Of a stretch of DNA of 64,000 nt, positions 52,328 to 54,835 are shown in pieces (the stretch's first letter is position 1; each line of letters begins with the position of its first letter). The notes under the pieces are model-generated. The model was not told where the DNA came from, searched no databases, and saw only the letters and a program-made list of their open reading frames with translations. The stretch covers positions 124,001-188,000 of the forward strand of contig CAJWBH010000004.1 of the NCBI GenBank assembly GCA_913019975.1, written 5' to 3'. The stretch is from Thalassolituus maritimus. GTDB taxonomy: Bacteria; Pseudomonadota; Gammaproteobacteria; Pseudomonadales; Oceanobacteraceae. The translations under genes were made by a program, and so were the position numbers.

Positions 52328-52419
52328 AAAAAGGTCAGCAAGGAAGCGGAGTAACTAAGTTAACCATAAGCATTCCGCGCTGACTTTTAACGCCGCATGG
52401 GCAAGTTCAGGAGGTCAGC
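52328..52419. repeat. Stop-codon-abutting hairpin repeat, copy A (after dapB)
   Basis: Core arms GGTCAGC and GCTGAC with inner GGAA/TTCC. Shares with copies B and C the segments GGAAGCG, AGCATTCCG and ACGCCGCATGG, the same orientation, and the position directly beyond a minus-strand stop codon (dapB, 52420). It is the most diverged copy. Confidence 0.65.
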
Positions 52420-53223
52420 TTAGAAGCCTAAAACGTCCTGCATATCGTAAAGCCCCGCCGGCTGCTCGGTCAGCCACTTAGCCGCCCGCACCGCACCTTT
52501 AGCAAAGGTCATACGACTCTGCGCTTTGTGCGTTACCTCGACACGCTCGCCGTCGGTGGCGAACATCACGGTGTGATCACCCACCACGTCGCCGCCGCGA
52601 ATGGTTTCAAAACCAATCTGCTTGTGTGGGCGAGCACCCGTCTGGCCTTCGCGGCCGTAACAAGCCACTTCGTTCAGATTCCAGCCCATGGTTTCTGCAA
52701 CGACTTCGCCCATGCGCAGTGCAGTACCGGATGGCGCATCGACTTTATGACGGTGGTGCATCTCGATCACTTCGATATCACTGTCTTCACCCATCACCTT
52801 GGCTGCCATGCGCAGCAGGTTCAGACACAGGTTCACACCCACTGAGTAGTTCGGCGCAAAAACGATCCGGGTGTCCGCAGCGGCGGCTTTCAGCTTGGAC
52901 TTCTGCTCATCGGTCAGTCCTGTCGTGCCAATCACAATGCCTTTGCCATGCTTCTGGCACAGTTCGACATTCGCCATGGTCGACTCTGGTGACGTGAAAT
53001 CGATCAGTACATCGAAGTGAGGGATTGCTTCTTCGACCGAAGTGACAGCCTTCACGTCCAGGGTCGTGGCCAGACCAGCAATGGCACCGGCATCAACACC
53101 AACCATAGGGTCATTCTCAAGAACGATCGCACCTGCGACTTCAGCAGCTTCATCATTGTGGACGGCTTCGATCAGCACACGCCCCATACGACCGGCAGCA
53201 CCGGTGATAGCAATTCGGGTCAT
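52420..53223 (-). CDS. dapB: 4-hydroxy-tetrahydrodipicolinate reductase
   Basis: 267 residues. NAD(P)H site [15 protein letters not shown] at the start, [10 protein letters not shown] (about residues 98-107), catalytic [14 protein letters not shown] (about 155-168) and the C-terminal [14 protein letters not shown]. Makes tetrahydrodipicolinate for lysine and peptidoglycan. Between dnaJ and carA as in Pseudomonas, but here two genes intervene before carA. Confidence 0.98.
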
Positions 53224-53345
53224 TATTCTTCTGCTTTGTAGATAGGATAAATAGACGGCCTAAGGATACCGAAGGCATGAGGTAAGGAAAAGCGCGGGAA
53301 AGGCCAGAGTGTCGCGCATGGGGTGCGCTACTACAAATTACGACG

Positions 53346-53468
53346 CCAGACCGTTGACGAAGAAGTCAGTACAAGGCAAAAGAGGCCCGGAAACGCGCAG
53401 TGTATAAGTCATACATGAGCATTTCCGGGCCTCTTTTAACGCCGTAATGACGATGCAGGCAGGTCTGG
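53346..53468. repeat. Stop-codon-abutting hairpin repeat, copy B (after dnaJ)
   Basis: 123 bases, ending at the dnaJ stop codon with no gap. Outer arms CCAGACC/GGTCTGG, a perfect 16-bp core stem (53378-53393 with 53422-53437, AAAAGAGGCCCGGAAA), and an inner TGTAT/ATACA loop stem. Between the inner arms it shares CGCAGTGTATAAGTCATACA exactly with copy C, extended by TGAGCATT. Confidence 0.85.
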
Positions 53469-54593
53469 TCAAATGTCCTCGAAGAAGCGTTTAACCCCCT
53501 CAAACCAGGATTTTTTTTGTGGCGAATGCTTTTCTCCCGTCAGCGACTCCTGAAACTTCATCAGCAGATCTTTCTGCTCTGAGTTCAGGTTCACTGGCGT
53601 TTCTACCTGCACACGGCAGAGCAGATCACCGGCGGTACCACCACGGACTGGCGTAACGCCTTTACCGCGCAGACGGAAGAGTTTGCCTGACTGTGTTTCC
53701 GCTGGGATCTTCAGTTTCACACGACCATCAAGGGTTGGCACTTCAAGTTCGCCACCAAGCGCTGCATCAACGATGCTGATCGGCACATCACAGTACAGGT
53801 TGCGACCATCCCGGTGGAACAACTCATGCTCTTTCACCGACACCTGAACGTAGAGGTCACCGGCTGGCCCACCCATGGCACCTGCTTCACCTTCACCTGA
53901 CAGACGAATACGGTCACCGGTATCGACACCCGGTGGAATTTTCACTGAAAGCGTTTTGGTTTCTTCTTTCACTCCGCGACCGTGACAGCTGTTGCACGGA
54001 TCTTCGATCATAGTGCCCTGACCACGACAGGTCGGACAAGTCTGCTGCACAGAGAAGAAGCCCTGTTGCATACGCACCTGACCCGCGCCACCACAGGTAC
54101 CACAGGTCTTAGGTGACGTACCTGGCTTGGCTCCTGAGCCATCGCAGGTTTCACAACTTGTCAGGGTGGGTACACGGATTTTCTTCTCGATACCGCGCAC
54201 GGCCTCTTCGAGAGAAAGCTCCATGGTGTAACGCAGATCAGAACCACGCTGTGGGCCACCGCGACCGCCCCGGCCACCGCCGCCACCAAAGATATCACCG
54301 AACACATCGCCAAAGATGTCGCTGAAGTTAGCACCGCCGCCACCGAAACCACCGCCACCGGCGTTCGGGTCGACACCTGCGTGACCATACTGGTCGTACG
54401 CGGCACGCTTCTGTTGGTCACCCAGAATTTCGTAGGCTTCAGTCGCTTCCTTAAACTTAGCGTCTGCATCTTTATCATCCGGGTTACGGTCCGGATGGTA
54501 CTTCATCGCCAGTTTACGGTAAGCCTTCTTCAGCTCCTTCGCGTCGACATCCCGGCTAACACCGAGAACTTCGTAATAATCCCGCTTGGACAT
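53469..54593 (-). CDS. dnaJ: Chaperone protein DnaJ
   Basis: 374 residues. J domain (1-70) with the HPD motif in YHPDRNPDD; Gly/Phe-rich region (about 75-110); zinc domain with four Cys repeats [24 protein letters not shown] and CNSCHGRG (about 140-205); C-terminal client-binding domain. Hsp40 partner of DnaK. Separated from dnaK by a hairpin repeat and a terminator-like stem, so it may be expressed below dnaK. Confidence 0.98.
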
Positions 54594-54636
54594 GATTCAC
54601 CTGTTAATTAAAACCGCTTCGCAGCTCCGCTACGAA

Positions 54637-54663
54637 GTAAAACGCGGCAAACTGGTTGCCGCG
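54637..54663 (-). terminator. Terminator-like hairpin between dnaK and dnaJ
   Basis: CGCGGCAA/TTGCCGCG perfect 8-bp stem, 5-base loop, followed on the minus strand by TTTTAC; a second stem CTTCG/CGAAG follows. Partial readthrough into dnaJ would be expected. Confidence 0.6.
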
Positions 54664-54715
54664 TCCACTGTTCTTACTTTGACAAAGGCGTAACAAAAAC
54701 TCGTCACGCAGTCTC

Positions 54716-54835
54716 CGGACCGTCGGCGAGGCCGCTAGCGCAAGGCGGAAAAGAGTGAGGAAGCGCAGTGTATAAGTCATACATGAGCATTCCGAACTCT
54801 TTTCCAACACCGCGATAGCAACGCAGCCAGGTCCG
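54716..54835. repeat. Stop-codon-abutting hairpin repeat, copy C (after dnaK)
   Basis: 120 bases ending four bases from the dnaK stop codon. Outer arms CGGACC/GGTCCG, core stem GGAAAAGAGT/ACTCTTTTCC, inner GGAA/TTCC and TGTAT/ATACA. Same orientation as copies A and B. The arms differ from B but still pair, showing compensatory change. Confidence 0.85.

Follow-up and report, generated by a model that had tools for sequence, protein, structure and literature searches.

The stretch of DNA considered here, referred to below as the window, comprises 64,000 nucleotides of the genome of Thalassolituus maritimus (positions 124,001 to 188,000 of contig CAJWBH010000004.1). One repeat sequence occurs three times in it in a single orientation, and each copy is directed toward the stop of a minus-strand gene: dapB (copy A), dnaJ (copy B) and dnaK (copy C). 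Most probably, these hairpins are old and decayed representatives of a group of miniature inverted-repeat transposable elements (MITEs), a family that owes its spread to IS5-family transposases working in trans. This reading draws on the family itself and its copy number, on covarying stems, terminal repeats, 4-bp YTAR flanks and matching IS5 elements, and on the observation of filled and empty sites and of an excess of insertions at stop codons. The features of the locus are as follows, with coordinates given as positions in the window and the copies read on the plus strand.

52306 to 52417, plus strand: copy A, degenerate; a covariance-model match in which box 1 and the distal outer part are unrecognisable
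52420 to 53223, minus strand: dapB-like gene (the name is that of the original prediction), with an MTRIAI start; its stop, TAA, abuts copy A
53346 to 53468, plus strand: copy B, a complete concentric hairpin that adjoins the dnaJ stop directly with its outer stem, CCAGACC/GGTCTGG
53378 to 53437, plus strand: main stem b of copy B with the core GCGCAG / TGAGCAT and the inner stem-loop, from an inverted-repeat scan
53469 to 54593, minus strand: dnaJ; its stop, TGA, abuts copy B
54638 to 54666, minus strand: terminator-like hairpin native to dnaK (GACGCGGCAACCAGTTTGCCGCGTTTTAC), retained beyond copy C
54716 to 54835, plus strand: copy C, a complete concentric hairpin; CGGACC/GGTCCG forms its outer stem, and 4 nt separate it from the dnaK stop
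54747 to 54805, plus strand: main stem b of copy C with the conserved core and the inner stem-loop, from an inverted-repeat scan
54840 to 56756, minus strand: dnaK (named from the original prediction and from its position beside dnaJ), start placed by eye; its stop, TAA, lies 4 nt from copy C

The original prediction placed three copies, in one orientation, directly beyond minus-strand stop codons, and this arrangement is confirmed: the model boundaries fall 2 nt from the dapB stop, 2 nt from the dnaJ stop and 5 nt from the dnaK stop. When the outer stems are extended by eye, copy B becomes flush with its stop and copy C comes to lie 4 nt from its own. Copy A is situated between the dapB stop and the stop of a convergent plus-strand gene (about 52313), which it overlaps by a few bases. 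A repeat scan detects three 71-nt copies, at 52346, 53395 and 54763, the outer two showing 63% and 76% identity to the copy between them. A strict core pattern, GCGCAGTNTA(3-12)TANATGAGCAT, has two matches in the window (copies B and C) versus 0 expected from 100 shuffles. With a covariance model of the family (R1: 119 positions and 35 pairs, built from 28 copies in 15 genomes), exactly three matches are found in the window at E<=1. Copy C scores 131.5 bits and copy B 112.9 bits, values that are partly due to construction since both belong to the 28-copy training set; copy A, which is not in the set, scores 39.9 bits. The idea of three equal hairpins holds for two of them only. When the gene-sense strand is folded and compared with shuffled sequences, B (z=-7.96) and C (z=-6.54) fold strongly, and their inverted-repeat arms measure 22 nt (91% complementary) and 16 nt (88%), respectively. 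The fold of A is weak (z=-0.90), and A is therefore counted as a degenerate, decayed copy and not as an equal third hairpin. All stems differ in sequence among the three copies.

The core of the element, about 119 nt long, is a single long hairpin in which four variable stems are parted by conserved, imperfectly paired boxes. Read on the plus strand, the first half consists of outer stem a, box 1 (CGTnAnCGAGGC, or the alternative form YGAGCGA ... GAGCGCA), stem c, AAGGC, stem b, GCGCAG and the inner stem-loop; the second half continues with TGAGCAT, stem b', AACrCCG, stem c', GCAACGCAGnTAG and stem a'. The stems are nearly unconstrained in sequence yet stay paired, and the boxes remain imperfect. 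In the 28-copy alignment, from which the structure was itself derived and whose copies are related, 96.0% of cells pair and both sides have changed in 26 of the 35 pairs. None of 500 shuffles reaches this, and control structures slid along the alignment pair at 34-42%. For 88 copies from named genomes, in an alignment fitted to the model, the corresponding values are 93.4% of cells and 30 of 35 pairs. Compensatory evolution of the stems, proposed initially from the copies in the window, is thus borne out well beyond them. Comparison by eye of copy B in the genome holding the window (G000; its relatives are numbered from G001 onward) with copy B in G002 also shows that the b-stem differences are compensated.

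Mispairs and T runs were counted in 133 copies, namely those whose core is recognisable and in which 10 or more of the 15 b-stem pairs are formed. They were drawn from a set of 170 unique copies, which is limited to matches of 101 to 141 bases with 40 nt of flank or more, duplicates being removed. In 89 of the 133, the b stem retains a tandem GA facing GA. The pairs of this stem amount to 1495 Watson-Crick, 45 G-T and 20 A-C, so that wobble is rare. The mispairs are asymmetric with respect to strand: on the strand antisense to the upstream gene, G-T pairs are in excess, with more G-T in 35 copies and more A-C in 12. The repeat had been said to lack a T run, which is incorrect: four or five T residues, read by eye, stand beside the main stem on both strands in each of copies A, B and C, and a run of at least four T is present on the gene-sense strand in 79 of the 133 copies. 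On contig C31 of G000, two family copies (L086, 2939-3107 and 4740-4907), the first directly behind a serA-like open frame, carry near their tip a palindrome of about 50 bp with GCCATGGATGGC-type and GCAGATTTTTGC sequence. This palindrome belongs to another repeat family, which sits within copies of the present one, and a nested insert of like kind is found at L175 of G008.

The family was searched for in 35 genomes, that of the window and 34 relatives, some of them drafts. The strict core pattern has 5 exact matches in the own genome (0 with a reversed control) and is present in 17 of the 35 genomes, the reversed control giving 0 matches in all. The R1 model finds 20 matches in the own genome (19 where fewer candidates were scored), including two doubtful ones, L056 at a contig start and L057 with 25.9 bits, and two, L053 and L055, that hold a nested insert. 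At E<=0.001, matches occur in 29 of the 35 genomes, own genome included. The genome therefore holds many copies beyond those of the window, and their structure is conserved in relatives, unlike what an isolated or unconserved local duplication would give. The element is short, non-coding and dispersed, and a genome has between 0 and 66 copies of it; inside the genus the extremes are 2 (G007) and 66 (G008); G026 has 37 copies, G010 22, G017 21, G012 19 and G019 12. In G008, dispersed sibling copies are identical at 82-88% of stem columns, against a mean of 45%. Such siblings keep inherited stems, which led to the rejection of the notion that every insertion creates its stems afresh.

A scan of named genomes gave at least 118 stretches, of which 80 were analysed, with 88 R1 matches among them. 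The main hosts of these 80 are Pseudomonas, Halomonas, Salinicola, Marinomonas, Marinobacterium, Thalassolituus and Nitrosomonas, together with unclassified or Chromatiales/Thiotrichales gammaproteobacterial bins. Bins named Balneolales, Bacteroidales, Alistipes, Thermodesulfatator, Desulfobacteraceae and Desulfuromusa contribute single matching contigs, which may have been misplaced. The core pattern was also found in four viral contigs, in which only the surroundings of the core were read.

The ends of the element give access to its mode of spread. Outer pairing extends beyond the model in 40 of the 170 copies, compared with 3.8% when the flanks are shuffled. The commonest extended end is CAGGCYGTTGAAAAAC, and an element bearing it measures about 145 bp; the intact members have terminal inverted repeats, CAGGCYGTTGAAAAA, in common with IS5 elements. 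Twenty copies have CAGG-type ends on both sides. Their 4-bp flanks are identical in 13 cases, against 28% in permuted pairs, and have the form YTAR (a pyrimidine followed by TAA or TAG) on one side in 19 and on the other side in 17. Flank pairs such as CTAA/CTAA and TTAG/TTAG indicate that the flank is a direct repeat. A DNA search with one extended end led to a complete 1.33-kb element on the Azotobacter chroococcum plasmids pAcX50b and pAcX50e, where it is annotated as "IS5 family transposase", with domains PF05598 and PF01609, and is flanked by TTAA/TTAA and CTAA/TTAA. The Pseudomonas putida plasmid pW2 carries an element of equal size and ends, flanked by CTAG/CTAG, inside which the gene table shows no transposase. 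The ends of these three elements, with the terminal repeat CAGGCCGTTGAAAAA, are alike at 15 of 16 positions, and on pAcX50e the insertion sequence (IS) starts on the TAA stop of traL.

Among the relatives, G012 encodes a transposase related to that of Azotobacter (52% identical over residues 1-307 of 361), with a matching end, CAGGCTGTTGAAAAA, beside the gene start and then CTAA; no opposite end was found. In G014, another type of end, GGCACCTCTGAAAAA, follows TTAG at a distance of 215 bp upstream of a PF05598 match, and GGCACCTCTGAAAAA ends also surround element copies such as L126. Further family copies have ends of the types GGAAGCTCTGAAAAA and GARCCTGTTCACGATC. A scan for an IS with GARCCTGTTCACGATC ends gave mostly coding-like sequence and no convincing pair, so that no IS was assigned, and a GGGCACCTCTGAAAAA scan of viral contigs gave no IS pair. 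Viral contigs bearing TARCAGGCYGTTGAAAAA (L337-L350) end 34-220 bp outward of the repeat in 8 of 14 cases. Carriage of the terminal repeat by phages was considered for such contigs and rejected, the contig ends near the repeat being read as assembly breaks in a multi-copy IS. IS5-group elements use a YTAR target. In agreement with this, three other PF05598-type elements with GGAA-type ends (L371, L378 and L382) in G028, a genome devoid of the repeat family, have YTAR flanks, which are identical in one of the three.

The target sequence bears directly on the position of the copies at gene ends. A codon ending in C or T and followed by TAA or TAG constitutes a YTAR, and insertion with a 4-bp duplication consequently keeps the stop. 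Intact copies lie exactly on a stop in 12 of 21 cases, whereas about 10% would be expected of tolerated YTAR sites (p=1.5e-7). The background was taken from the 80 named loci, where stop codons account for 108 of the 1062 YTAR sites that are either on stops or outside open frames (10.2%), the elements' own sites included; 1476 further YTAR sites lie inside frames, outside this background, and gene calls are open frames of at least 100 codons. Among the copies whose flanks were usable, the a' end falls -10 to 15 nt from a converging stop in 54 of 117 and the a end in 8, versus 5.7% of random intergenic placements, a count from which 19 copies near locus edges are excluded. Intact copies are oriented toward the gene end in a ratio of 14:5 by flank pairing (p=0.06) and of 7:5 by exact site, and eroded, short-ended copies in a ratio of 53:4 (p=6e-12). 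Unoriented insertion followed by selection of one orientation fits these figures; the contrast is no proof of selection, since the intact and eroded groups also differ in organism. In a minority of copies (L051, L052, L125, L128, L133, L136 and L140), the a' end faces, as judged by eye, an apparent ribosome-binding site and start of a divergent gene rather than a stop.

Insertion states were compared among relatives, as the original prediction had proposed, and both filled and empty sites were found behind ampE (16 genomes with a match, 12 loci fetched). The element stands directly behind the ampE stop in G000, G001 and G004, and the stop is at the same place without the element in G006, G002, G003, G007 and G014. 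At the ampE 3' end, G012 and G017 have another, decayed element-like hairpin, and G015 and G019 have other sequence. The junction in G000 reads: stop TAA, CAGGCTGCTGAAAAAC ... GGCCTGT, TAA. Empty dnaK and dnaJ loci were seen in more distant relatives. Copy C sits between the dnaK stop and the terminator-like hairpin, and in relatives without the element (such as G011, G014, G015 and G019) a like hairpin directly follows dnaK. This comparison drew on 34 DnaJ places, of which 30 were given as loci; 6 of the 30 were lost in the motif search.

The region behind dnaJ varies among congeners in the elements or tandem sets that it carries. It contains B alone in G000, X and a truncated B in G004, the array B1-X'-B2 in G002, another type in G001 and G003, two others in G008, and none in G007. 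In G002, two near-identical copies flank a third, showing that local copying occurs. A relative of X stands in the G002 tandem array, which weakens the proposal that X inserted recently behind dnaJ in G004. Neighbouring sets are also found in G008, where the stop-proximal member is the higher-scoring one in eight of ten sets, the exceptions being the dnaJ pair on C21 and the pair C8:37694/37848. At L233, where the element lies behind an agmatinase gene, orthologues without the element have the same end codon in 2 of 9 loci (TGA in G368 and TAA in one of the two G245 copies). The other 7 run 2 to 4 codons further, and the stop at L233 may thus have changed around the insertion.

How does the family compare with known systems? 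Neither in the window nor at 18 further copy-bearing loci does the element score above the gathering threshold of any Rfam 15 family; elsewhere in the window, Rfam recognizes a tmRNA (63248-63606, plus strand), a ribosomal S15 leader (28372-28492, minus strand) and a tRNA (34835-34917, minus strand). Ten plasmid records matching one copy list no feature over the element in their gene tables, which are incomplete, and no description of the hairpin family was found in the literature searched, which lay mostly outside subscription papers. Palindromic MITEs are a known kind of element, represented by ERIC, YPAL and Correia (PMC2229807). ERIC, a 127-bp MITE, resembles the present family in length, intergenic location, multiple copies and long stem-loop; it is reported to have TA ends, as against the IS5-type ends with YTAR described above (PMC2229807). 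The R1 scores give no support to homology with ERIC: at one E. coli ERIC site (two records with the same scores), the model gives 5.5 bits on the ERIC core, and the best score of that stretch, 8.0 bits, lies elsewhere. YPAL, or RU-2, of Yersinia (about 168 bp) is likewise a palindromic miniature insertion, with targets beside a dyad symmetry and with filled and empty sites, but its duplications are of 3-26 bp with no fixed YTAR target (PMC2229807), and it is set apart by description, not by sequence. Ppu-9 of P. putida, a 124-nt intergenic stem-loop with 57 copies, 31 of them complete, fits in length, copy number and host group (PMC2267715); compared by description only, Ppu-9 and the present family may be the same. 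The IS5-family elements of pAcX50b, pAcX50e and pW2 share with the family the terminal repeat, the YTAR flanks and a possible start at a stop codon. They differ from it in their size of 1.33 kb, their transposase gene (annotated in the Azotobacter ones) and the lack of any structured core that could be seen.

The repetitive extragenic palindromes (REPs) of the GTAG/CGTC type and the REPINs made from them are palindromes too, often within 20 bp of gene 3' ends, and GTAG termini can supply a stop (PMC3733652). Some carriers of the present family have Y1_Tnp matches, for instance two in the own genome and two in G004. A REP- or REPIN-like element moved by a RAYT (a Y1 tyrosine transposase) is nevertheless a very improbable explanation. 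REPs are units of 20-40 bp, mostly in head-to-head dimers, with a RAYT partner for the GTAG type (PMC3733652), whereas the present unit measures 119-145 bp and ten neighbouring sets in G008 are, by eye, in one orientation, with one further, opposed pair (C13). The motifs CGTT/CGTC and nTAG, sought in a GTAG/CGTC-tag test, occur only within the larger helix. The Y1_Tnp family PF01797 has no match in G008, G010, G017, G012 or G019, which carry 66, 22, 21, 19 and 12 copies. The original statement that the repeat is no classic REP was therefore sound, and the RAYT-type partner that it envisaged is unsupported. Of the three functions that it offered, a 3'-end stabiliser, a terminator or a non-autonomous mobile element targeting gene ends, the last is the one that the comparisons favour.

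An intact element is about 145 bp long, with IS5-type terminal inverted repeats around the hairpin core of about 119 nt, and would be moved by an IS5 transposase. A pyrimidine followed by TAA or TAG at a gene end would serve as the YTAR target and leave the stop intact after insertion. The copies of the window would descend from such stop-codon insertions and would have lost their ends later, the copies facing one way being kept, perhaps, because a hairpin at the 3' end of a message then brings some benefit or does the least harm. Several facts weigh against this reading. All the evidence comes from sequence comparison, and no movement was observed. In the window, B and C have outer stems of only 6-7 bp, and A, B and C show no long terminal repeats, no matching direct repeats and no recognisable duplication, so that for these three copies the mechanism rests on family membership. 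Seven of the 20 flank pairs differ. At ampE, the flanks of the G000 copy also differ (CTAA/TTAA), and G004 has TGA as the stop and lacks the distal, second TAA. Eroded copies abut TGA, which is not YTAR, at 19 of 52 stops, in a sorting by end type that wrongly put L043 among the eroded copies; in several of these cases the stop lies inside the outer stem, paired with its reverse complement, without a direct repeat. In G026, which belongs to another family, the copy in the dnaK-dnaJ gap (L110) has the opposite orientation and lies away from the dnaK stop. As to the enzyme, 34 of the 35 genomes have no close match to the Azotobacter transposase, G012 being the only one that does. PF05598 is present in 16 of the 35 without tracking copy number and has no match in G000, G008 or G026. 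G008 appears to be a metagenome bin, and insertion sequences are often lost in such bins; the absence is a gap all the same. Finally, a DDE transposase needs only the ends of its element, and the covarying core is left unexplained by transposition alone.

The core may be conserved through a role at the 3' end of messages, or through a step of transposition that uses the fold. Protection from palindrome-cleaving enzymes is another possible reason. Could the hairpin be primarily a conserved 3'-end RNA element, a terminator or a stabiliser of mRNA maintained by selection, with mobility incidental or past? We consider this possible, though unlikely. The strong covariation (model-fitted in the second set of copies), the compensated changes in the orthologous copy B and the T runs on both strands speak for it, as does the orientation of the eroded copies. 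The surplus of G-T over A-C mispairs could mean a strand-specific RNA, but the G-T-richer strand is antisense to the upstream gene, a poor fit to a simple mRNA 3' element, and wobble is rare overall. In addition, relatives that lack the element at these genes have kept a normal terminator there, and inside one family the number of copies runs from 0 to 66. The copies have a stem and a run of four or five T; a terminator pattern scan calls none of them, although its loop limits suit them poorly. A stabilising or terminating role at the 3' end is a possible secondary use, because the eroded copies are strongly oriented and the intact ones not clearly so. Alternatively, stem pairing might be kept by palindrome-correcting template switches during replication, the element being otherwise neutral. 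The compensated changes are mostly full Watson-Crick swaps with few wobble intermediates, as such switches would leave them. Yet the boxes GCGCAG/TGAGCAT and the tandem GA opposite GA stay imperfect across genera when correction would perfect them, which means that the boxes at least are selected, and we regard this account as rather doubtful. That the three copies result from one local duplication in the dnaK-dnaJ-dapB cluster is scarcely credible: the array behind dnaJ in G002 offers a precedent, but A, B and C differ in all their stems, and this genome, like others, has copies at many further sites.

We therefore favour a MITE family moved by IS5-type transposases. A broader and more tentative conjecture, which we would not place above a possibility, is that the core is a structured nucleic acid with a function of its own. 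It would have been packaged repeatedly between differing transposon-like ends (CAGGCYGTTGAAAAA, GGCACCTCTGAAAAA, GGAAGCTCTGAAAAA and GARCCTGTTCACGATC, the first two being linked here to IS5-type transposases), have spread across gamma- and betaproteobacteria, and then have been domesticated at gene 3' ends with a selected orientation and with stems that drift while remaining paired.

Palindromic repeats near the 3' ends of bacterial genes are common and their cause is seldom known; the coincidence of YTAR with a pyrimidine followed by TAA or TAG offers an explanation that is both simple and testable. Hairpins of this kind downstream of dnaK, dnaJ or dapB call for a test before they are annotated as gene-specific regulators. 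The family also provides a natural experiment, in which intact copies are little oriented and eroded ones strongly so, and in which stems co-vary and mismatched boxes do not. It lets one ask when a parasitic hairpin turns into a working 3'-end signal.

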